The notes beneath the pieces were generated by a model that saw only the letters and a list, made by a program, of their open reading frames with translations, ran no database searches and was not told the origin of the DNA. 64,000 nt of DNA from Polytrichum commune (lineage: Eukaryota; Streptophyta; Polytrichopsida; Polytrichales; Polytrichaceae). Of this stretch, positions 24,981 through 64,000 are shown piece after piece (within the stretch, counting starts at the first letter, position 1; every line of letters begins with the position of its first letter). The position numbers and the translations under genes were made by a program. Location: positions 23,870,001-23,934,000 of the forward strand of contig OX485806.1 of assembly GCA_950295325.1 (NCBI GenBank). The letters are read 5' to 3'.

Positions 24981-25923
24981 GGCATCAACCTCCGCCAGGT
25001 GTCCACCAAGCTCGTGGGCCGCCCACGTGGCATGCCACATGTGTTCGATTGCCACCTTGGCAATCTTCGGTAAAACGTTGGAGTGCCTTGACATTCAATC
25101 ACACTTTTTGAGCCTTCCATGGTATCCCCCCATGGCCAATTCACGGTGAGACACACTACTTATTTACCCTTTGCCTCTTAAGAAAAGGGTTAGAAACAAA
25201 TGATAAATGAAGAGCAATGTTTGTCCTCACTGTCTTGTTCCTTATTGCTTGGAGGTCATGTTGGGATGGGGGATGAATGTGATGGGAATTTATTGGACTA
25301 CAAATCTTTCGAGTTCGTGCGGTTCCTCATTTTTTCCATGTGTGTCACTTTTGATGCTATCAAGGTGGGGTTTCTGGCTAAAAAAGTGAGATTCATTCTA
25401 TCTCTTTTTTTTCTTTTTTTTTGGCACAAATTGAAAATTGAATTGCAGAGAGAACCCAAAATACAACCAACCCGGCCGAAACAATGCAGCCCGAGTGGAA
25501 ATCAAGAAATAATGCTCATCTAAGGCCTATCCTTCCAAGCAAGGACTAAGTTGCTTTGGGTCACGATAAGACCTTTGACCCCCCAAGTCAAATCAAATTT
25601 GTTAAGAATGTCATGGTAGGCCACGTCCGGGGCTTTATCCAAATCCCTAAGCGTCCGTTTCCATTCAATCCTCCCGTATCCATGCAAGGCATCCCAAATG
25701 ATTTGATGTGTTTTCTCAACGGGCCATTACAATTTATGAAAAATCAAATTATCCCATTGCCGCTAGATGATCCATGGAAGACCACTTCTTAAGAAGAACC
25801 ACATGTGACTGAACCGTTTGAGTGCTTTGCACAAAGGTTGATAAAAAAAAACATTGCAACATGGAAAAAAATCTCTCTCATGTGGAGGCCACACATGTTA
25901 AAAATGCATGTTCTAAAACCTTA
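24981..25923. other. Intergenic, nothing recognised
   Basis: Short open frames only, none recognisable. A T-rich stretch lies near 25405-25425. Confidence 0.4.
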
Positions 25924-26126
25924 ACATGTGCCTAACTTCGAGGATCTTGGGTTCAAGGTCGATCCCTCCTTTTTTCAGTTAAAACCATTTGGTTCCAACT
26001 CTAATTGGAAATAGAGGTTCAAACCTTGGAAAATCATTGTATTGGATCATAGTTGAAAGCAAATGTTTATACCCATATAAAGAGGGACCGACCTTGAAAC
26101 CAAACTCCTCAAAGTTAGGCACATGT
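25924..26126. mobile_element. Foldback MITE, 203 bp
   Basis: Inverted repeats of about 45 bp: the left begins ACATGTGCCTAACTTCGAGG, the right (reverse-complemented) ACATGTGCCTAACTTTGAGG, then TTCAAGGTCGRTCCCTC on both. No clear target duplication; family unknown. Confidence 0.65.
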
Positions 26127-27670
26127 CAAGGTTGAGATTCTTTTACCTTGGCTTACCAAACTCCATTTCACAATTGGCGTCTTTGACCGTGTGTGGCCGC
26201 CCCTTCATGGCATAAACTATATGACCTCCACTGCAAGGATTTTCTCAATAAAGAAAATATTGTTCTTTCTAAAATTGGACGACAAGACGGACGTGGCCCT
26301 CAAATTATAATCATATACACATATATGCAAATTTGACATGTGAGGATTTTAATTTTCCAAATTTAGTGTTCGTTTGCTTCCACTAGAGGTGATCAAAGTC
26401 CATCGACCGAATGTTGGGTGTCTCTCATATTGAGCTCGAGTGCTATATTTGGAACTTGCTTGCACTTCAAGGCATTGCCCAACCTGCGAAAAGACAACTT
26501 GTTTTTACAACAGGGCGACACCCACATGCAAGAAAACTTGGCTCCTCGCTGGGGTCTTATAAGTGACCTTCTTCGACGAGGACCCAATTCACCTTGGAAC
26601 GGCGTTCTCCTCCATACCGAATCAAAACCCAATGAGACGTGCGCCTATTTCTTGATGAGGTATATAAGAATCAATTGCGGATCAAGTGGGGAAGCATGGA
26701 TGATGATGGAGAGATACATGATGGCCTAGAACACTCTTCTCTTCTCCCCCGGGCAAGAGATGACCCCTCGGGTGGCTCATGGGGGCCATAAAGGCATATA
26801 CAAGCCGACCTTAGCATTAGATAGTTTCCGACATGGTGGGCGAGAGCTTCCTTGGAGTGTGAGCTGCACTAATAGAAACGGTTTCCATGCTTGGGGGATG
26901 GATATCCAAAGGATATACCGGTCGGCACACATGACCACAAATTTGATGAAGGCAAGCTTTTGCATCATGACACACTATGATTCCGTGAAGCCGGACCCAC
27001 ACCCAACTCAACACATCAATGTGGTCAACACACACGTAACTTCGACATACGCTTGTCTATTATACCCACTATATTGGAGTTCGAGGCTCACCAAATGATA
27101 ATTAGGCACCGTAAAAGTGTCCACCAAAAATAGGGGGCAACTGTTGTTCGTTGGTATATTATTTGTTGCAATTAACAAATTCTAGCTTGAGATATATATT
27201 AAGTAAGTCATGCACGTGTTGTTCGGTTACTTTTTCCTTCATTGGACACCTATATTTGGTTGGTGTGCGGTCCAGTGGGATCAAAGAACAAACAACATAG
27301 AGATACATATTGAAAAGAGATAGGGCTGCGTCGTCAAGTTTTATTACCTGCTTTACACTCAATAATGAACATGATTGGGAGGATCTATGTATTTGGTCGA
27401 GAAATCAACAAACGTGTACTTTCAATAATTATCACTAAATCAAGGGAGATCCATTTCAATACGAGCTCAGCTGATGCTTCATCGAACATTTGCTAAAGTG
27501 TTGTTGTGTAAATATAATCTTTAGAAGATGGAGAACATGAAAAACAAACCGAACAATGCCCACATACCTTGGTATACGAGGGTGTGTATGTTGCTTGAGA
27601 GTATAGGTGGCCCACCATTCAATCATGTGCGCTAGATATGTGGCCTGAAATATCAACAAGTGCATGAACT
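26127..27670. other. Intergenic, nothing recognised
   Basis: Contains open frames of about 100 codons (26418-26729 and 26760-27098, plus) with no family resemblance and no splice or promoter support. Confidence 0.35.
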
Positions 27671-27889
27671 ACACTAAATATGATATTTAGTGTCACTTGC
27701 TATTTGGAGTTACTAAATGTTGTATATTTTTATTGTATATCTCACACTTTACCAATAGATGTTAAATTGGTTGTTTGGGCATTCTAGAACATTAGTAACT
27801 GTACTTGGTAAAAAGTTACATCAATAGTAAAAAAATATAGCATTGTGTAACTCCAAATAGTAAGTGATGCTTAATATCATATTTAGTGT
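27671..27889. mobile_element. MITE, ACTAAATATGATATTTAGT family, 219 bp
   Basis: Inverted repeats of about 43 bp. Each end carries the self-palindrome ACTAAATATGATATTTAGT or a variant, followed by CACTTGCTATTTGGAGTTAC. Shorter or diverged relatives lie at 28030-28136, 35224-35385 and 37067-37272. Confidence 0.75.
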
Positions 27890-30413: not shown

Positions 30414-30787
30414 AGGCCCGTTCACATGGGGTCCCAAGTCCCAAGTCCCAAGTCCCAAGTCCCAAGTCCCAACATGGAGGCAACGTCCCATCTTTTGAGG
30501 CTCAACAAACCATTAAATTATAGTTGATTATCATTACCGTCGGGTTTTGATTATTTGTCTGTAAACGTATATACGGGGCTTGTGTTGAGAGTCGGGTCCA
30601 GGTTTTTGCTTGACCCACAAGTCCTGGGCCTCACCTCCATAAAGTGTTGCCATGTAGGCATCCATGTCATACTTGAGACTTGGGACTTGGGACCCTTGTG
30701 AAGTGGTAAGTCCCAACTTCCATGCCCTCGACGGCTAAGATTGCACAAATCGACCTCGAGTGACTTGGGATCTGTGTGAACCGGCCG
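30414..30787. mobile_element. Harbinger-like MITE with heptamer expansion, 374 bp
   Basis: Inverted repeats AGGCCCGTTCACATGGGGTC and, reverse-complemented right end, ACGGCCGGTTCACACAGATC, both followed by CCAAG. TAA flanks at 30411-30413 and 30788-30790. A GTCCCAA tandem sits just inside the left arm. A truncated relative lies at about 21430-21600. Confidence 0.75.
30431..30472. repeat. (GTCCCAA)6 minisatellite
   Basis: Six exact 7-bp units inside the left end of the MITE. The complementary word TTGGGAC recurs at about 30677-30693 in the right half, so the tandem can pair with it. Confidence 0.97.
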
Positions 30788-30941: not shown

Positions 30942-31045
30942 CCAATGGACCCTCCTTTAAAAGTTGCCACAATTAACTTAAACTTGCAAATTCTCTCGTC
31001 CATGATGAAAGGGAGGACCAACCGCTACATTGTTTTGTCCAATTT

Positions 31046-31223
31046 GTGTGGGTTACCATTTGAAGGTAGATGTTGCTATAACATTTTACTAAAAGTATCA
31101 TGTTTTGCCTCATAACATATGTGGTTAGTATGCACACCATAGAATATGATAGGACTTAGTTGGTTTGAAAAAAGAACGTCTGTAAAAAGTTATAGCAACA
31201 TGTAACTCCAAATGGTAACCTAC
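31046..31223. mobile_element. Foldback MITE, about 178 bp
   Basis: Inverted repeats of about 36 bp: left TGTGGGTTACCATTTGAAGG then TGTTGCTATAAC; right GTTATAGCAACATGTAACTC then CAAATGGTAACCTACA. Family not identified. Confidence 0.65.
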
Positions 31224-31475
31224 ATTGATTAGACAAAATAGTATAGTTACAAATGAATCGGTTGAAATTCAAGGCTTCAGAAAAATTTCCCAATTGGTTT
31301 AGAGGAATTTAGAAAATGCGCCTCAAATTAGTAAAGAAATTAGGATTAGAATCGAAAGATGTCAACATGTAACCGGTTGGACTTGGAAACACTAGGGTCT
31401 TCACCAATTATGCCCCAACAGTCTCCCCGGACATTGCTCGTCCACCTTCACTTAACATTCACCCAACACTTTTAA

Positions 31476-35385: not shown

Positions 35386-37066
35386 TTAAAATAGTAATAT
35401 GCAATTAATGGGATAATCAATTTAGACTAATTGGGGGTGTTCATAGTCAACCCCGGTGGCCAATCAACTCAAAAGAATTGACCCCGGGGTGTATACTACT
35501 CCAAGATGTTTATGTCGGATGATAGAGAGGTGCTTTTGTATGTGGTATTTCCCTCTCTTTGGTGTTGGTAACCGAAATCCCAAGGACTTGGTGCCCAAGG
35601 AGATTTTTGGACATAAATCTCCAAGTGTTGAGATTCTAGTGTTTCCCAAGACCAATCAGTTATATGTTGACATCTTATGGATTTTTTTAATAAATTATGT
35701 AAATTCCTCTAAATGGACCAATAATTTCCTTGAAATCTTGAATTTACACCAATTTTTTCAAAACTCAATTGGTTCATCTGTAACTACCATAACATCAAGT
35801 AGTAATGCTAGCACGGTGCCCTTTGAGTATGCACTATATTATCTCAAAAAGAAGGGGAAAGCTTGCAAAGCAAGGGTGAACGAATGGGCAATCATTAAAA
35901 AATAGTCGTTTCAAAATTGCGTCAAAAAGGCTTCCAATGTAGGTTTCGGAAGACTTTTCAAGAAAATACAACGACCTTTTTTGACACCACTAACTTTTCT
36001 CATCGCTTTATAGTTATTTAGATTTGTATAGGTTATGAATTATCCTAGATTAGAACCTTCACTGCCACTTGGCATTCGCCTCATCCTACAAACCAACATA
36101 ATTATTTCTCAGCAATGAGAACCACTCCCCACATAAACTCAAAATAGCCTAAAAGAATCTCGAAGGTAACGCCACCTTCGCTCTCGAAAGAACATCGAAC
36201 TGGCGTGTGTGCTGATTTGATGCTCTTTTGAGCAGCCCATTATGGGTGCGTTACTCATAGCTGAACCACGCTCGAAGCCCTGAACCAGCCGGGCCGGCTC
36301 GTGGAGTGGGGGGTGCTAGACCCCAGTGTGGCCAGGTACTACATTCTCAATCAATAGTTATAGACAACTAAACTCCGAAGAGGCGCAACAACACGACGCA
36401 TTGATTGGGACGATAAGCACTATAGGTGGTTCCCCCCCTCCCCTCTCCCCTTTCATGGCAACTAACCTTTGGGTTTCCGTTTCCGAGCTAAATACGCCAT
36501 TGATGAGGAGGAAAAGGCCAGGTTAGGGGACCAGGAGCAGGGGCTGCTACAGTGCACGTATCCGGATATTGGGGCAGGCGTGAGTGTGGATAGCGCGAGA
36601 TATCCGGTCCATTAATAGAGGCGGGGGGTTAACTGACCCCCTCACCAGGGGGAAGCGTTGGGGCGTAACCGGAGGTTAGCGGGAATCTAAGCAGGAGTTA
36701 ATTAGCCGGGGATCTAACCAGGGGTGGAATCTCCCAGTAGGTTCCCTAGACTGCGGGGCCTCTAGGAAGGTGAGGGCCCTTGAAGGCAATGGGTGGCCGA
36801 CTACTGTAGTTAGCTTATTCCCGGATTCCATGCACGTATGCGTGTGGTTAGGCCATGATATCCGGACATGGATAGGTAAGACCTCCGTCAATTGGAAGAG
36901 GCGGACTTCCTAACCATAGGTTGGTTATAAACGACGTAATTAACCCGTCATAACTACCTGCCTGCCTACGAGGACCTCAACTACCTTTTGGGATCTTGCT
37001 AGAATTTAAACACCTAAAGTTGAATCCCCCTCCTCTCCCTTCCTTCCCAAAGCAACTACACATACC
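35386..37066. other. Intergenic, GC-rich patch, one 149-codon frame
   Basis: The frame 35456-35905 (plus) starts at GTG rather than ATG and matches nothing I know, so I do not call it a gene. From about 36280 the sequence becomes GC-richer, with CCGG and GGGG words. The block near 36838-36873 (GCGTGTGGTTAGGCCATGAT) has a diverged match near 37382-37417. Confidence 0.35.
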
Positions 37067-37272
37067 AACTATGTATTTAGTGTCACTTCCTATTTGGATT
37101 TACTACGCAAGGATATATCGATTTATTGTATATCTCATAACTTGCCGGACAATGCCAAATGGGTGTTTGGACATTACCGAACACTAGCGACTTTAATAGA
37201 TAAATAGTTACATGGATAGTGAAGACTTATAGCGTTGCGTAACTTTAAAGAATAGGTGATGCTAGCTAAATT
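37067..37272. repeat. Diverged copy of the ACTAAATATGATATTTAGT-family MITE
   Basis: Contains GTATTTAGTGTCACTTCCTA, the TGTTTGGACATTACCGAACA interior and a degraded right arm, colinear with 27671-27889. Confidence 0.6.
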
Positions 37273-38292: not shown

Positions 38293-41200
38293 ATGGTGGC
38301 CACCGTGGAAGATGCAGCAACTCGATGTGTGACGTTGCCACCGTCGCCGGTGCTGAAGGCCTCCCTTAAGAGGTCCCTGCCGTCTCTAACGTCTCTTCCT
38401 GGCGCTGCCTGTCTTCCAGAGGACATCCCTCTAGACTCCCTCAAGAAAGTAGTCCCTCCGCTCGAAAATGAGCTGCAGACCACCACTGCTGCAAAGAGTA
38501 CTCGTGGTAAGGACACCAAGAAATTTCATCTCGGAAGAAACTTGCACGCTAGCTGCTTGGAAATCACGGAGCCGGACATGGACGATGAAATCACTGGCGA
38601 GAAAGATGCGTACATGGCCAGTGTTCTTGCCCGCTATCGCAAAACTTTGACTGAGAAGACGAAGTATCATCTAGGTGCGTATCCAATTTGTAACTTCGTG
38701 CCCCTACTTAACAAGTTTGTCATCAATCGCTATCCTGCTTTACGAGCTCCCCTACGAAAGTGTGAGTGCTCGGTAAAGATGGAGTTAAAAGATCGAGACG
38801 TTATTCAAAATTGAAGTATACTTTGAAAGACACGCCTTGGTCTGATCCGGTCTTCACTTTTCTGCAATCAGTCAACAAAGACGTTTTGCCTATTGGTAAC
38901 TGGTCAGAGCAGGAACACGCTGCAGGTCTCATTAGTTAGTGCAGCTTAGGACCTACCGACTTGACAAAATCCTGGACGGTCGTCTTGATGAATTTCTTTC
39001 AGTTGTCACTCTCCAAGGCATTTCTTCTTCCCACCACAGTTTCTTTCCATCCATGCGGCTGTTCATCTTACTGTGCATAGGGATCCAATATTCTTTCCTA
39101 GTTGCTGTCGTTGTGGATGAGCCGTGGGTTATATCCCGAACTTGTCCAACTGGTCATAGTCGTCGAGTTGTGGTTAGTCCACTTGGTTAGTCGCTGTGTA
39201 TCAGGAGACGAATGTATCCTCGCCAATGTTGAGAATACGTCAGTCGATTGTTGTCTCGGTCAATTCCAGCTGATTTTCAGGTGTAGGTTCTTCGAGCTTC
39301 TGAATTTAGACCATGGTAATACCTGTTGCATCTTCAAGAGCAAGCCTCATCGTGGCTTGACTGCTCGCTATCTTCATGCTTTTGTTTGCATTTTTGTGTG
39401 GTTGTCGAGTCTACTACCGCCTGAATGTGCTCCAAATGGCTGCAGGATATCCTTACAACCTGGACTTCGATTACGGAGCTCTGTCACAGCTGCAGCACTT
39501 TTCCATCAACAACTTAGGGGATCCGTTCATCGAAAGCAACTACGGCGTCCATTCCAGGCAATTTGAGGTAGGTGTGTTGGATTGGTTTGCAAGGTTGTGG
39601 GAGCTGGAGAAAGATGAATACTGGGGTTACATCACCAATTGCGGCACGGAAGGCAACCTTCATGGTATCCTCCTCGGGTAAGCGTTGATGTTCTCCACAG
39701 TAGATGTTTTCTGACACCAGTCGTTTTTGCATTCCTGGACCTGTAGTTTTCTGAATGTTATTACTGGAGAAATTGTCAATATATAGTTAGCCTTGGTTTG
39801 GAAACAAATTTCTCTGTGCGAATACTACATCTCCCAGAGGACACGTTAGGATAGTTGGGTCGTCCAACTTTGCATTCAACTCCTTACAAATATGGCTGTT
39901 TTCCTAGTTCTTCTTGATTCTAAGTAGAGCATGGTCAATCATTCCAGGAGGGAAGTTCTTCCAGATGGCATCCTCTACGCATCCAGGGATTCGCATTACT
40001 CCGTGTTCAAAGCTGCCCGCATGTATCGCATGGAGGCTGTGAAAGTGGACACTCTTTTGTCGGGGGAGATAGATTGTGCCGATTTTGAGCGCAAGCTGAC
40101 CGAGAGAAAGGACAAGCCTGCTATCTTGAACGTGAACATTGGTAACTAGCTAATCCCAAACTCTTTGAAGTGATTTTGTCTTTGTGGAATCAGGTTCGAT
40201 CGTGTGGAGTACGTTGCATATAGGATGTTGATCTGCCATTTACTGAACAGGGGTATTGGAGTAATCTTTCGTCGATTGCTGGTTTGTGTAGGCACAACAG
40301 TTAAGGGTGCCGTGGACGATTTGGACTCGATTATTAGAATTCTGGGAAAAGTGGGTTACACAGAAGACCGTTTCTACATTCACGTGGATGGTGCACTCTT
40401 CGGGCTGATGATGCCTTTCGTCAAAAAAGTAAGTTTCAATTGTCCTAATGAACAATTCTTGAGTTGTTGTTTAAGTAGTCATTTTTATAGAACATAGTCG
40501 AATTTTGAGATTTTATTCTGGAATGTCGAACACGTCGGATATGCTTTAGTAAGATGGTTTGAAATGAGATTGGTATCAGACATGTGCAGTGTAAGCTAGA
40601 TTGCCTGCTGAAGATGATTCGGTTGTGCAGAGGACCACACTCCTTCATCTTTTGATCGATATGTTTGTCCTAGAAAAGTCTGTTCGGGTGCGCAATGCCG
40701 ATCTCAAAATGTGGTGCTGCTACGTGCCATGAGGTAAACAGTTTGCGTATGGTGCATGAGACACAACTTCCATGTGGCGAAAGTAGAGAAGCACGGTGTT
40801 TACATTTCTGGTAGGTACAAGCTAGAAAGAGAACATCGTGGGACTTCTACTCGTGACTTGACAGATATCCAACCGCTGACGCCAGTTGTGCACCGGAGTA
40901 GCTGGCGATTCAAATATCTTACCAAAATCAGATGTAGAGATTTAGTCTTAGGATCCTCTCTTACATGTTCTAACCCATTATTACTACGCATTCTATCTTA
41001 TTAAAGGGTACTTGGGATCTGCGGTACATTCGAAAGAAGTCATTATCCGGAGAAGTTCACGAGGTAAGTGATCTAACACAGTTAAGGAGAGCGTCCATTC
41101 ACGTACGTCCCACAATGAAACATCCTTTTGATCTACCTCTCGTATTTTTTTATCTAATTTTCTTGTGCTTTCCATTTGTAAATACAGTCTAACTCAAGTT

Positions 41201-42301
41201 CTTCAACGTTTTGTTTCTAGCCGTTCGCTGTGTCTGGTTTTGTTGGAGGACTATGAGCAATTCTCACTAATGCTGGATTTGCCTGAACTTCTGCAGGCTC
41301 CCAAGGTGTCATTCAAAAAACCCATTGGTAGTGTAAGTGTGTCGGGTCACAAATTCGTTGGCTGCCCGGTGCCGTGTGGGGTTCAAATCACTAGAATGAA
41401 GCATATTAATGCACTCTCCCGTAATGTTGAGTACTTGGCTTCTCGTGATGCAACCATCATGGGAAGTCGCAACGGCCATGCGCCAATTTTCCTGTGGTAC
41501 ACTCTGAACCGGAAAGGGTATCATGGTTTCCAGAAAGAGGTCCAGCGGTGCCTTCGTAACGCACACTATTTAAAAGAGAAATTGCGGGAAGCCAAATTTG
41601 GTGTCCTTCTTAATGAGCTCAGCAGCACAGTGGTGTTTGAGAGGCCGAATAATGAAGAATTCATTCTCAAATGGCAGCTGGCATGTCAGGTTGGTGACTA
41701 TTTTCTTTGATGCCGAGTTGTTTTTTTTTTTGCGAATAATCTAATCTATTTTTAATACAATCACTCCAAGAAACCTCGGGGTGGTACTTCCATTTGCTTT
41801 TGTAAAGCTATATTGTAACTGCATTCAGGGTGCCGTGTATTATATTTACAGGTTTGATATTCTAGCTTGTGCTTGTTTACAAAATCTACTGTTCTACAGC
41901 CTTCATACGTACACGGAACACAACTGTGGTGACTATTTAGTGAAAATGTTACTAATTCAACTAGACAATTGTTGTAAAGTTACACCCGGTGCCTTGCGAA
42001 AATAGTGTTTCTAAATTCTTATGTTTGACCTCCTTGTTGACAGGGTAAAATTGCCCATGCGGTGGTCATGCCAAGTGTGACTGTGGGGAAACTGGACGAT
42101 TTTGTGGAGGAGCTTGTTGAGGCTCGTAAGCTCAATTTCCCAGATGGAAACGTGATTGTCCCCTGTATTGTGGAGGAGGTCGGTCCTCAGAATTGCGCCT
42201 GCTCTCTCCACCGTGGTGCAATAACTACTCCTCCCAAGGCAGAAAAACCTGTGACTGCGCCGCATCAAAATGGAAAACAGGTTATGGGACCTTTGCACTG
42301 A
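38293..42301 (+). CDS. SDC: Serine decarboxylase (group II PLP decarboxylase), 6 exons, 531 aa
   Basis: Complete plant serine decarboxylase: L-serine to ethanolamine plus CO2, feeding choline and phosphatidylethanolamine/choline synthesis. Exons: 38293-38674, 39446-39677, 39948-40141, 40292-40428, 41297-41689, 42044-42301. All GT-AG, phases agree, TGA at 42299-42301. Seen: N-terminal extension without clear motif (1-127); the conserved core starts at [46 protein letters not shown] with His221, expected to stack on [11 protein letters not shown] with Asp302, expected to hold the pyridine nitrogen; [15 protein letters not shown] with Lys334, the expected Schiff-base lysine; [11 protein letters not shown]. 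Family members as I recall are about 480 aa, so the extra length is mostly N-terminal and probably lineage-specific. The start is the first ATG after an in-frame stop at 38272. No transit peptide is obvious; cytosolic action is inferred. A broken duplicate lies 6 kb downstream. Confidence 0.92.
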
Positions 42302-45985: not shown

Positions 45986-46036
45986 AGGCCACTTCACACA
46001 CGAGCCAAGAGCTGTGACCATGAAATTCTGAGAGCC
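45986..46036. repeat. Solo end of the GGGYCRCTTCACAC-family MITE
   Basis: AGGCCACTTCACACACGAGC followed by CAAGAGCTGTGACCATGA matches the terminal repeat of the elements at 31476-31979 and 62288-62768. No partner end was found nearby. Confidence 0.6.
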
Positions 46037-46167
46037 CAAGTCTTCATTTATTGGTATTATTATTTTTTTCTTCTCTTCTTTTGTGTTCTTCACTTTAGTC
46101 CTACTGTGTTACTGGCTCCATTGCCAGTTTAAAAGAGCTATTGCTTTTAAGGGTTTAGTGAGGTACA

Positions 46168-46279
46168 TAGTATACATAAGATTTGGGCGAACCAACCCAT
46201 ACACTCGTTCTTTGTTGGATGTTTAAACCCTTGTCTCCAAGGAACCAGTGTACGGGTTGCTTCGCCCCAACCGTATACA
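46168..46279. repeat. Small foldback, about 110 bp
   Basis: GTATACATAAGATTTGGGCG then AACCAACCC at the left pairs imperfectly with GGGTTGCTTCGCCCCAACCG then TATAC at the right. GGGTTGGTTCGCCCAAATC recurs near 61992-62010, so the end is dispersed. Confidence 0.5.
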
Positions 46280-46825
46280 TGATGGATAGTTGTTTTTTTT
46301 TTTCTCCTGTTATGTGTATATTTTGGAAGTCCATTGCACATCAAGTGTGCATTCCTTGGCAAATGCATGATGGTGGTCCTCAATTACCACCCCGTCCAAC
46401 CCCGATGTATACACATGTGGGTCCTTTGTTAATACAATTTTGAAGGCTACTGCACCCATCATGCGTTCCATTCAATTCTCATGTAACAAACTTCTCATAG
46501 GTTTATCACCAACTTTCACACTAACACTTATAAATCAAAACAATGAGTTGAAGAACTTGGTTTATTTTCTTTGTAATGTCAAATTACAAACATAGACCAA
46601 GTAGGTCTTGGTCTAAGCTCAACCACCCGACCATAGGAGAGAGACAAAAAGATCCTCTCTCCTCCCCCGAGCTTCCTCTTATGCCAAAGGCACTACTTTT
46701 ACAATCTACTTTTACATATAGTAAAAATATTCTATTCATAGCTTTATTTCTTAGTTCTACTATGAATCTTCTATCTTTGGTTCTTCTAGAACCTTCTTCC
46801 ATCTTTTATCTCAATCTCATTCTTC

Positions 46826-47185
46826 CAATTGGTACTGTCTAATTCCAATTGGATTCATCCATCCTTCCTTCTAGTTGGAATTGTCTAATTCCAACTAACT
46901 TCATCCAACCATTCTTCTAGTTGGAATTGTCTAATTCCAACTAGATCTATCTATTCATTGAGAGTTGTCTAACTCCAATGAATAGCATTTATCTTTCCAA
47001 TTTTGGAGTGGTCTAACTCCAGTGCACCTCATCGAGAGTTGTCCAACTCATGTGCGCATGTTCTCAATATGGAATGGTCTAATTCCAATGCACTAAATGC
47101 GGAGCTGTCTAACCTGTTGTCAATCTGGAGTTGTCTAACTCCAATCGATCTATCTTCAACTAGAAGTTGTCTAGCTCCCATCATC
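46826..47185. repeat. Tandem array of about ten short palindromes with GTCTA centres
   Basis: Ten units, each with a central GTCTA (once GTCCA) at 46837, 46883, 46929, 46967, 47011, 47041, 47077, 47107, 47133 and 47169, spaced 26-46 bp. The centre is flanked by complementary arms that differ between units: GGAAT/ATTCC in units 2, 3 and 7, GGAGT/ACTCC in units 5 and 9, and an almost 14-bp arm CTATTCATTG...CAATGAATAG in unit 4. Units 8 and 10 are degraded. Open frames across it only reflect the repeat. Confidence 0.85.
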
Positions 47186-48219
47186 CTCTGCTTACACACT
47201 AGCACATGTGGTTAGAATTTTTCAATTATCCATCAATATTTGTAGTTACTTTACATCTGCTCTTCGGGTTGGGCTACTTTATTGTGCACTACAAGGTGTT
47301 TGTTTGATACAGTTTTTGAGTTCCATGTTCCATAGGACAAAACGTTTGATACCTATTTAGCTAGTAGTTCAAAGTGGATTTCTTTTGGATTAAAAGGCCT
47401 ATTTCACTCATGATTTACATTTTCTACATGTGATGGCTTTATTCACCACATTAGATTCAAAAGCTTGGTTTCAATAAATTATTCCATTATATAGCCTACC
47501 GTTTGCACATGTGTATTTGTGTTTCTACATGTACTTCTCATGTACGTGGGGAGTAATTTCATAATCACCTGCATCGCTTCTAGTTGTTTTGGATGCCACT
47601 ACGTGATCCACCAATTTCTTTTTATTTATCCTTGATCTTTATGTAATTGTGTTCTCTAGTTTGCCTCCGCATTTCTTGTTGTTCTGTATATATGCTCGCA
47701 TTTTATGGAATCATGGTCATCGTGTACATGTTCATTTGTGAGTAACCAAGAATTTCATTTTTCATTTCCTTTTGTTTTGTTGAATGTTTGAAGATCTTGG
47801 GCATTCATTCCCAACATATCTTGCATAACGTTGCATCGTTGCTCCTCTATGTGACAAGCACAGTTTGCAAGCCCCCTTGTGGAGTGACCACCATCACCCC
47901 CTCCCCCTCTAGATCAGGACCTTGACTTTCAACACACCTCCACGACCTAGGAAAACATGAGATATGTTGATGGTTGTGGCCCCACCCCAAGGTGGTCTTA
48001 TGTGTAAATTCCACTTCGCCCCCTTCCGTTGTTTTTCCTTCAACAGAGGCCTAGCATTCAACTCCCCGTACTTGTACCTAACTTTCCATCTTGTGTTTTT
48101 CCATATGTTGTTGATCTTGATCCCAAGCCTATTGGTCTGCATGATTGTGAACCTCATTTGGGCTTTGCATCGTTGCGGATCCAATTTCCAGTGTCCGATG
48201 ATTGGTGTTGACACAAGAT
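47186..48219. other. Intergenic, nothing recognised
   Basis: AT-rich DNA with short frames only, none recognisable. Confidence 0.4.
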
Positions 48220-48390
48220 ACAAGGGGGGTTTACAACATTCCCTTTTGGCATAATTCCCTCTTTTGTGTGGGAAAAACGTAAGAATTCCCTTCAAAAGGA
48301 GGGAATTATGTCAAAGTGGGAATGTTCATAGTGGGAAAACCATCCCCTTTCCCATGCGGGAATTTCCCAAACGCTCCATGTGAAGGAAGT
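48220..48390. repeat. Hairpin-containing direct repeat, left copy
   Basis: About 170 bp, repeated in the same orientation at 50445-50615. Inside, 48236-48261 and 48299-48325 form an inverted pair of about 26 bp (ACATTCCC...AATTCCCTC against GAGGGAATT...GGGAATGT). Looks like a MITE-type element. It ends where the decarboxylase pseudogene begins. Confidence 0.75.
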
Positions 48391-49950
48391 TCTCCAAGAT
48401 GGAATTTTGTATGTATCTAGAGATTCACATTACTCTGTTCAAATCTAGCCGTATGTATTGCATGGAGGCTGTGAATGTGGATACACTTCTGTCACGGGAA
48501 ATAGATTGTGTTGTGGGTGTCTCATTGGACTGCATCTTGTTGCAGACATGCATTTTAATTCATAATGAGGTTTGATGGAAACAACAAAGTGTTATGTATT
48601 TCAACCATTGTACGTAAGGCTCTTTGAGATTTGCAGGCACAATTGTGAAAGGTGTTGTGGACGATCTGGATCTGATTCTCCGCACATTGTAAAATGTTGG
48701 ATATACGGAGGATCGTTTTTACATTCATGCGGATGCTGCCCTCTTTGGATTGATATTGATGATATGCCCTTTGTTAAGAGAGTAAGTGTACTTCGGATGG
48801 ATTCATTTTTATCTAGTGAAGTGCGTAGTGTGATTGATACTACACCAGTTGAGCACAGTTAAATTTGTGTGCCTCCAAGAGACATCATGTGATCTACATT
48901 TCATGGCAGACTTGACAGTGCTTAGGTTTCTATCTGGTAGCTGCGCATCGGGTTCTAGGAGGTCTGATGATTTGCATATCCGTGAAATTTGACTGTCTTG
49001 CAGTATCTCATTGAGGGGACCTAGAGTGTAAACTCCTGACACAGGTTTCATCTGGATTTGTGCAGGCTCCGAAAGTAGCCTTCAAAAAACCAATTGGTAG
49101 ATTTAAGTGTGTCAAGCCACAAATTTGTGGGTTGCCCAATGCCTTGTGGTGTGCGAATTACTAGAGTGGATGGTATATATCAATGCACTCTCACGAAATG
49201 TTGAGCACCTGGCTTCTCGAGATGCCACAATCATGAGTAGTCGTAATGGCCATGCTCCGATTTTCTTGTGGTACACCCTCAATCGTAAGGGATACCGCGG
49301 GTTCTAAAAAGAGACCCAGCGATGTCTCCATGATGCTCATTCTTTGAAAGAACGATTGCGGGAAGCCAACTTTGGTGTCCTGCTAAGCGAGCTTAGCAGC
49401 ACGGTGGCATTTGAGAGGCCTCTGGATGAAACATTCATTCTCAAATGGCAGCTAACATGTCAGGTTAGAAATCCAGTCTTCCTGTCTCCTGCATTTATAA
49501 GTTGGTGAAAGTCGCAAATTAGCCTGCTGTCATACCGTCCATGAAATTGTTAGCTGGGGTTGGTAATCTGTTGTGTGTGTGTGTCAAAAACTGGATGTCA
49601 GTTGTGGGAAACGGAAGTCAGGTAATGAGTAGGAAACATGCATATTACAAATAGGAACCCCCTATGTATACAATTTTGTAGCTACATAATGTTGTGATCA
49701 CTTTCTTCTGGAACCTGGATGATTCTAGACACCATTTCTCTTTGTTTTCGAGGGAAAACTGCACATGCAGTGATCGTGCCAAGTGTAACTGTAGAGAAAC
49801 TGGATGATTTTTGTGAACGAACTTATTCAGGCCCGGAAGAATGCTTTCCCTGCTGGAAACGTGATTGTTCCTTGCATCATCGAGGAGATTGGTGCTGCGA
49901 AGTGTGCATGCTTGCACCATCAAGGTTCAGCTACTACAAAAACGAGTAAT
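48382..49950 (+). pseudogene. Broken partial duplicate of serine decarboxylase (exons 3-6)
   Basis: Colinear with SDC exons 3 (48382-48520), 4 (48637-48784), 5 (49064-49463) and 6 (about 49751-49950). Introns are kept, so it arose by DNA duplication, not from an mRNA. Exons 1-2 are absent. Damage: a 2-nt loss in exon 3 followed by a stop; a TAA within exon 4 after ILRTL, Gly-to-Ala and other changes around the PLP aspartate (HADAA), and an insertion near its end; an indel and a TAA after RGF in exon 5; a frameshift in exon 6. The PLP-lysine site still reads SSHKFVG. It cannot make an enzyme; a transcript is possible. Confidence 0.92.
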
Positions 49951-62771: not shown

Positions 62772-63234
62772 GGGGCACTTTATATGAGGGCCCATTTCTA
62801 GGGCCCATTTCCAAACCCTAGTATGAGCCCAAAATGGGGGCTCACATTTGTTTTATGCTTAGAATTTAGTTGAAGTTGCATTTGACGTCATTATTGAAGC
62901 ATCAAAAAGTATAAAAAGAGTGAGGTTGGGTGTGGAATTATGTTTTAGGCCTTAGGCTTAGGCGGGATGGTTAATTAGAGGATTAGCGGCATTAGGGAGT
63001 TGGTTGAATTAAGATTGAGAGTGTGTGTGTTAAGTAAGGGGAAGGGCCTTGGGGTTTCATTGTTTGAATTAAGACCTTCCCGTGTTGGTTTAGGGGTTGA
63101 GGGTTTAGTGGATAGGATTGGGTTTATTTTTAGATGGAAGGGGTTTAAGGGGTGTGGTTTGTTTTTGACTCTCTCTCTCTCTCTCTCGGCGGCGAGGGGA
63201 AGCCGCCGCTACAGGTTCGAAGGTTGGCTTAGCT
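62772..63234. other. Intergenic, possible LTR or leader sequence
   Basis: Contains a twofold GGGCCCATTTC repeat near 62788-62812 and a (CT)n tract at about 63169-63188 followed by a GC-rich GGCGGCGAGGGG stretch. No gene identified. Confidence 0.35.
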
Positions 63235-63478
63235 CAAGCTATTCGGCAGCTAGGCAGCTGCTGAAGGTCGAATGTTGGTTAGCTTCAAGAGATTCGGCAG
63301 CTAGGCAGCTGCTGAAGGTCGAATGCTGGTTAGCTTCAAGGAGATTCGGCAGCTAGGCAGCTGCTTAAGGTTCAAATAATGTCTTAGCTTCAAGGGAATT
63401 TGGCAGCTGGGGCAGCTGCTTAAGGTTGAATGTTGGCTTAGCTTCAAGGGGATTCGGCAGCTGGGGCAGCTGCTTAAG
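63235..63478. repeat. 52-bp tandem repeat, about five units
   Basis: ATTCGGCAGC (once ATTTGGCAGC) starts units at 63241, 63292, 63345, 63398 and 63452. Each contains GCAGCTAGGCAGCTGC or GCAGCTGGGGCAGCTGC, an inner palindrome, then AAGGT...TTAGCTTCAAG. The plus frame translates to a repeating SAARQLLKVECWLASR-type peptide with no known family. Confidence 0.9.
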
Positions 63479-64000
63479 GGGTTGAGACTGAAGTTGTATA
63501 AGGGGGGGGGGACTAATAGTTTTACACTATATTATGTTATCATTTAGTTTATTAGGTTATTACGTAATATTAATTTAGATAATTAGTTTATTATCAAGTG
63601 AGGGGACCACTAGGCATTAGATAGTGGGATTAGGGGGTGAACTTGATGTGAGTGGATTATGGGGTCGCAATAGGGTGTGTTAGGATTGTGATAATAGAGA
63701 AGAGCGTTTGTCAACGCTTGTACTCATGTCATGGAATAAATCGGTGTGCCAAAGTTGATGGAAGATGTAATGGATTTTAACGACATGGGGAAGAGGGAGT
63801 TATGTGAACATGAATGTGATCCCCATGCCCTCACCCGGACTAGGACGCATAAGGGTGGGTGGTTTGGCCTCACACCTAGGCATCAACCAATGAGAGTGCT
63901 TAGATTGCCCAAACGGGCCCTAATATGGGCCCAAGGGCTTTATATTGAGAGTCGGCCCACTTCTCCTAAAGCTTACGTGGCGGGTGACATGGCAGCATTT
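63479..64000. other. Intergenic, nothing recognised
   Basis: A G run lies near 63500-63509. No gene or clear repeat up to the window end. Confidence 0.35.

Follow-up and report, generated by a model that had tools for sequence, protein, structure and literature searches.

A U3 array of imperfect palindromes in a Ty3/gypsy chromovirus LTR of Polytrichum commune: candidate regulatory boxes with partly coupled arms

According to published reports, LTRs of Sireviruses, which belong to Ty1/copia, carry high-copy, dyad-symmetric palindromic repeated motifs (RM boxes) upstream of the TATA box (PMC2829016, PMC10760457), and the palindrome clusters of these elements attract small RNAs (PMC5311732, PMC10760457). 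Tandem U3 repeats in tobacco Tnt1 and in retroviruses can take part in transcription control (PMC3601003). Here we compare with these systems an array of palindromes in a 64,000-nucleotide stretch of the P. commune genome (the window; contig OX485806.1, positions 23,870,001 to 23,934,000).

The ten units that a first-pass annotation of the sequence had placed at 46826..47185 were confirmed, with the following positions:

46826..47185, minus strand: U3 array of ten imperfect palindromes, plus-strand core TGGARTTGTCTAAYTCCA, from sequence and RNA and DNA folds
46824..46853: unit 1, loop 46837-46840, CCAATTGG-type arms, inner mismatches in the window copy
46872..46897: unit 2, perfect 11-bp arms
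46916..46945: unit 3, perfect 13-bp arms
46951..46985: unit 4, 15 pairs with a bulge (its arm had been called unlike any other)
47005..47020: core of unit 5, G:A mismatch adjoining the loop
47036..47049: unit 6, 5-bp arms, loop GTCC
47071..47086: core of unit 7, the GGAAT/ATTCC form of a 66-bp repeat that also contains unit 5
47101..47116: core of unit 8, decayed in the window copy, ~10 bases lost alongside
47126..47143: unit 9, 7-bp arms
47163..47178: core of unit 10, weak pairing in the window copy

The loops start at 46837, 46883, 46929, 46967, 47011, 47041 (GTCC), 47077, 47107, 47133 and 47169. Nine units have the centre GTCTA that had been ascribed to all ten, and the one at 47041 reads GTCCA. 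GGAAT pairs with ATTCC and GGAGT with ACTCC, as claimed, and the odd arm of almost 14 bp proved to be that of the unit at 46967, CTATTCATTG(A)GAGTT / AACTC(C)AATGAATAG, with 10 outer and 5 inner pairs and a bulge. A single fold shared by all ten units was too strong a claim, in that pairing is poor in two units of the window copy, those at 47107 and 47169; the matching unit positions are better formed in L037, one of the genome loci that we fetched (numbered with L). The G+C content at 46001-48000 of the window is 0.385.

The array lies far above chance: nine plus-strand GTCTA occur in 360 bp, compared with at most 4 per 360 bp in 100 simulated first-order Markov sequences of 64 kb. Tandem Repeats Finder called part of the array as a 46-bp repeat, as might be expected of an ordinary satellite. 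However, an origin by chance, or as a satellite array unlinked to a mobile element, is extremely improbable in view of this GTCTA count and of the occurrence of short arrays dispersed inside LTR copies whose ends are defined and whose flanks differ.

These LTR copies were found by searching the 408-Mb genome, whose contigs C1-C7 measure 42-78 Mb, with positions 46540-47260. Of 739 first-look candidates, 40 gave scored matches; apart from the window itself, these were 39 places of 88-92% identity. Thirty LTR matches were fetched as loci. In L002-L007 and L019 the ends equalled 46482 and 47255 within 1-2 bases and likeness stopped beyond, with termini reading TGTAA...GTTACA. The window copy accordingly has these features:

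46482..47255, minus strand: LTR copy of 774 bp, TG...CA on the element sense strand, ends common to the genome copies, flanks differing
46715..46720, minus strand: candidate TATA box TATATG, ~105 bp downstream of the array on the element sense strand, by sequence match only
46561..46566, minus strand: AATAAA, candidate polyadenylation signal of the LTR

Target-site duplications of 5 bp were seen in L003 (CTATG), L004 (AATAA), L005 (GGGTG) and L037 (GAAGG); L007, L019 and the window copy showed no clear one. As its flanks have neither an evident duplication nor a primer site or polypurine tract, the window copy is taken to be a solo or truncated LTR. A polypurine-tract complement, as in L037, comes after L002. 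In sense-strand LTR coordinates the array spans 71-430, the TATA-like site is at 536 and AATAAA at 690. The array is thus placed in U3 because the TATA-like site lies downstream, provided that this site is used; the 12-base motif around TATATG was present in 27 of 70 fetched loci, overlapping loci counted. A search for LTR ends confined to the window (TG..CA plus target duplication, or terminal inverted repeats) yielded chance candidates only, and the true ends came from the genome copies. A DNA transposon, considered on the basis of the TGTAA ends and a subfamily with an extended right end, was dropped once a primer site and paired LTRs were found.

L008-L030, except L019, form a second LTR group, ~94-98% alike and with a longer right end. 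Its members have ~140-225 extra bases at the start of U3, among them a variable repeat ~80-90 bases long and a terminal sequence like GTAGTTACATTACA that is duplicated. Another palindrome, TAGACCAAG-taggt-CTTGGTCTA, lies on the R-U5 side of the LTR (window 46593-46615) and is fully or almost fully preserved in part of the other copies and altered in the rest.

A pyridoxal-dependent decarboxylase gene region is present twice in tandem (39948-42203 and 48382-49912), and the LTR sits between the two copies, which share three matching pieces, 75-80% alike and on the same strand. Elsewhere in the window, stretches of ~220 bp match their own reverse complement at 68-74% (25917-26133, 27671-27889 and 31025-31246; foldback or MITE-like), one of the three recurring at 37064-37263. 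A 54-bp tandem repeat of ~5 copies at 63213-63479 has the internal palindrome TTCGGCAGCT-AGGC-AGCTGCTGAA, and GTCCCAA is repeated six times in perfect tandem at 30431-30472.

The element to which the LTR belongs was identified from full-length relatives. At 6 places the complement of the tRNA-iMet primer site adjoins TGTAACAAAC, compared with 0 for the reversed control. We fetched six regions around such sites, and two of these, L037 and L038, have paired LTRs, with identities of 95.1% over 955 aligned bases and 99.5% over 777 aligned bases, respectively; in both, the two LTRs flank the primer site and a polypurine tract. No second LTR of the same orientation was found in the other four regions. 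One of the fetched loci, L039, showed no match to the LTR over 60 bases, and the one open frame examined there matched zinc-finger models that are not retroviral. By Pfam, the open frames of L038 encode a zinc knuckle and aspartic protease, then RT, RNase H, integrase and a chromodomain. The Chromo domain model scored above the cut-off in L038 (E 2.6e-7) and below it in L037 (E 0.00087); in both elements the integrase core model rve was below the cut-off and the integrase zinc-binding model well above. Since RT precedes integrase and a chromodomain is present, the element is a Ty3/gypsy chromovirus; copia, the first guess, was ruled out by the same Pfam order and chromodomain. Thus, the array belongs to the LTR of a Ty3/gypsy chromovirus family. 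Readings as a satellite, as an isolated stem-loop family or as a chance product without relatives are not supported: the array is the U3 part of an LTR that recurs in dispersed copies with defined ends.

An RT search with the L038 query gave 140 scored matches of 2717 candidates. Among the matches listed, at least 8 have an open frame of 1539 aa and 90-91% identity to the query, and the LTR near one match with such a frame (L050) contains 11 array units. Recent activity of the family is suggested by the one element whose LTRs are 99.5% alike. L038 also holds, at 2164-2582 in its 5' internal region, an AT-rich, partly palindromic tandem array with units like ACTGTAATTATAT.

The motif is widespread in the genome, with 643 exact occurrences of GGARTTGTCTAAYTCC (reversed control, 1), and arrays with 34-, 36- and 46-bp spacing were found at other fetched loci. 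We examined L043-L070, of which 27 were picked because they contain GGARTTGTCTAAYTCC exactly, among the first 100 listed places, all on contig 1, and L050 was taken from the RT search. With the exceptions of L047 and L054, 26 of these 28 loci match the L038 LTR over >120 bases at ~62-90%, and arrays are present even where the best match to this LTR is only ~64-80%. The palindromes are element-borne and recur, with different unit numbers and spacings, in diverged LTR families of this genome.

To describe conservation, 17 loci (L040, L042 and 15 of L043-L070) were aligned to the L038 LTR. When pooled, loop positions had an identity of 0.885 and the remaining core positions one of 0.867; the R-U5 side reached 0.854, the outer U3, as far as it aligned, 0.891, the spacers 0.824 and the outer arms 0.785. 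Thus, the core is kept about as well as the remaining LTR, not far better (0.87 compared with 0.85 for R-U5). Note that the values for loop and core in the pool are biased upward, because the unit finder demands at least 12 of 16 core matches and at least 3 of 4 loop matches; pairs 7-13 lie outside the finder columns. The spacers had been described as not conserved. Across copies they are less conserved than the cores (0.82 versus 0.87) but not devoid of conservation, and the outer arms are lower still.

We next asked whether the two arms of a unit change together. In the window array alone, dealing out the right arms anew over columns 1-10 gave a modest signal (67 of 100 positions paired versus 57.4 expected, P 0.005; 57 of 90 versus 49.5, P 0.016, without the near-duplicate unit 3). 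We then pooled 63 arrays with 559 units, 349 of them distinct. L014, L031, L032 and L034-L036 were left out because they overlap L037-L042, and L033, L039 and L054 had no array of at least 2 units. Shuffling of columns in this pool indicated strong covariation at pairs 3 and 7 and none at pairs 1-2; pair 3 (A:T or G:C) was paired in 304 of 349 units, against an expected fraction of 0.50. This measure is inflated, because related units are counted and ancestry is ignored. Comparison of nearest neighbours gave a weak excess of double changes at pair 3 (9 versus 4.4) and pair 7 (6 versus 3.7), with pairs 8-11 and 5 ranging from expectation to ~2-fold and the others below. In a tree test of single pairs, pair 3 had 4 double changes versus 2.4 (P 0.21), pairs 6, 7 and 9 reached P 0.03-0.05 and the rest were not raised.

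The only clear signal came from summing over pairs on neighbour-joining trees built without the tested columns; these trees, of 34 columns each, are rough. Across 227 unit types, 41 same-branch double changes fell on pairs 3-9, a range chosen after the nearest-neighbour and per-pair results were known, compared with 18.6 expected; 20 of them led from one pair to another. Six off-register controls gave 16, 20, 20, 17, 22 and 22 versus 13.4, 15.2, 15.5, 17.0, 21.2 and 22.4, respectively, with 0-5 pair-to-pair doubles. The 20 pair-to-pair doubles in register compared with 3 in two off-register controls (P 0.004). No clear coupling was seen at pairs 10-13 (21 versus 19.5) or pairs 1-2 (2 versus 3.5 expected) with the 227 types. 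With fewer types, pairs 3-9 had 32 versus 18.5 (149 types) and 28 versus 16.6 (103 types); at 103 types one off-register control reached 16 versus 12.2, and pairs 10-13 reached 21-23 versus 18.0. The arms thus change jointly beyond independent expectation, in register only and at pairs 3-9, a result of moderate strength. The coupled change proposed in the first-pass annotation is borne out for these pairs and not for pairs 1-2 and 10-13. Most changes are one-sided: pair-breaking single changes (221 with the 227 types) are eleven times as frequent as pair-to-pair doubles, so that independent change of the arms, named beforehand as counting against the proposal, is in part what we find. Pair-to-pair doubles made up a larger share on internal branches (9 of 48) than at the tips (11 of 193; Fisher P 0.007 at 227 types and 0.057 at 149 types), which is consistent with an active lineage that retains symmetry and dead copies that lose it.

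Paired changes around a fixed loop had been attributed to selection on a stem-loop or to copying by hairpin formation. RNA hairpins formed by the transcribed U3 of the 3' LTR could serve the element's RNA or yield small RNAs for silencing by the host. The minus strand of the array does fold strongly as RNA (z -7.2; 0 of 100 shuffles as good), and in maize the regulatory regions of Sirevirus LTRs, which are rich in palindromes, are reported to be hotspots of small RNAs (PMC5311732, PMC10760457). We nevertheless regard this explanation as quite improbable. RNA pairing should be visible at pair 3 in the intermediates between A:T and G:C, and among the 643 genome-wide occurrences, A.C plus-strand intermediates (G.U in element-sense RNA) numbered 20 versus 28 of the opposite kind, small numbers that mean only an absence of support for RNA pairing (the matched total, 595 of 643, was obtained by subtraction). 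Moreover, mismatches are tolerated in the pairs adjoining the loop: 75 of 349 distinct units have C:A at pair 2, which speaks against tight hairpin pairing there. Rfam gave 0 matches at the gathering threshold in the window.

Alternatively, the symmetry may be a mutational by-product without function, in which an ancestral palindrome was duplicated in tandem and its arms were matched by hairpin-templated copying during reverse transcription or repair. The restriction of double changes to the correct register would be expected in this case, as would the strong fold of the array as single-stranded DNA (minus strand, z -10.8; 0 of 100 shuffles as good). Unit 5 of L024 even displays a clean one-step change from GGAG/CTCC to GGAA/TTCC relative to its sibling copies, with flanks still like those of unit 5. 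However, none of the 10 branches with pair-to-pair doubles in the all-column tree changed two or more pairs at once, which counts against arm copying because copying should sometimes carry a block. Pairs 1-2, which lie inside any hairpin, are uncoupled, and the array persists across diverged LTR families. We consider a functionless by-product rather unlikely. It is also doubtful, though conceivable, that the boxes are kept palindromic by a process coupling the arms at the DNA level, either hairpin copying in reverse transcription or selection on a protein-bound cruciform. Such a process would make them self-correcting regulatory palindromes, whose sequence drifts while symmetry is retained across a group of plant chromoviruses.

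The explanation that we favour, by analogy with the arrays of other elements, is that the U3 array probably consists of multi-copy, dyad-symmetric cis-regulatory boxes, a candidate enhancer or upstream activator in the LTR of the chromovirus. A dyad-symmetric binding site, TGGAR-N8-YTCCA, fits the conserved parts of the units. Host DNA-binding proteins would occupy the boxes and drive transcription from the TATA-like site downstream. The array would expand and contract through tandem duplication, with periods of 46, 66, 36 and 34 bp; the half-sites of each box would be held matched while the element is active, and each copy would decay freely once inserted. Two points speak against regulatory boxes: the array exceeds the R-U5 side in conservation by very little, and binding of a protein dimer alone needs no joint change of half-sites at pair 3.

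In its primer site, polypurine tract, gene order and chromodomain, the element resembles plant Ty3/gypsy chromoviruses; among the matches listed, no palindromic U3 array in a plant chromovirus is described in titles or the beginnings of abstracts. Like the Tnt1 and retroviral arrays, the present array consists of tandem repeats in U3, but those arrays are in Ty1/copia elements or retroviruses. The closest likeness is to the RM boxes of Sireviruses, for example CACCGGACTGTCCGGTG, which are likewise a repeated dyad-symmetric motif in the LTR upstream of a TATA box, here a candidate one. In contrast to Sireviruses, the host element is a Ty3/gypsy chromovirus and not Ty1/copia. For Sireviruses mostly a CGG-CCG core and CpG islands are described, whereas the core here is TGGAR(TTGTCTAA)YTCCA, without CGG-CCG. 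Coupled arm variation is a feature of the present array, in which alone coupling was examined; it is the only part of our results that goes beyond the routine, and its strength is moderate. One genome thus offers numerous copies, some with matched arms and some with mismatched ones, in which to examine whether symmetry is maintained by protein binding, small-RNA conflict or copying errors. If the boxes are indeed regulatory, palindromic U3 arrays would not be confined to the Ty1/copia Sireviruses but would occur, with an unrelated motif, in a Ty3/gypsy chromovirus as well. This would suggest a repeated origin of such arrays in plant LTR promoters.
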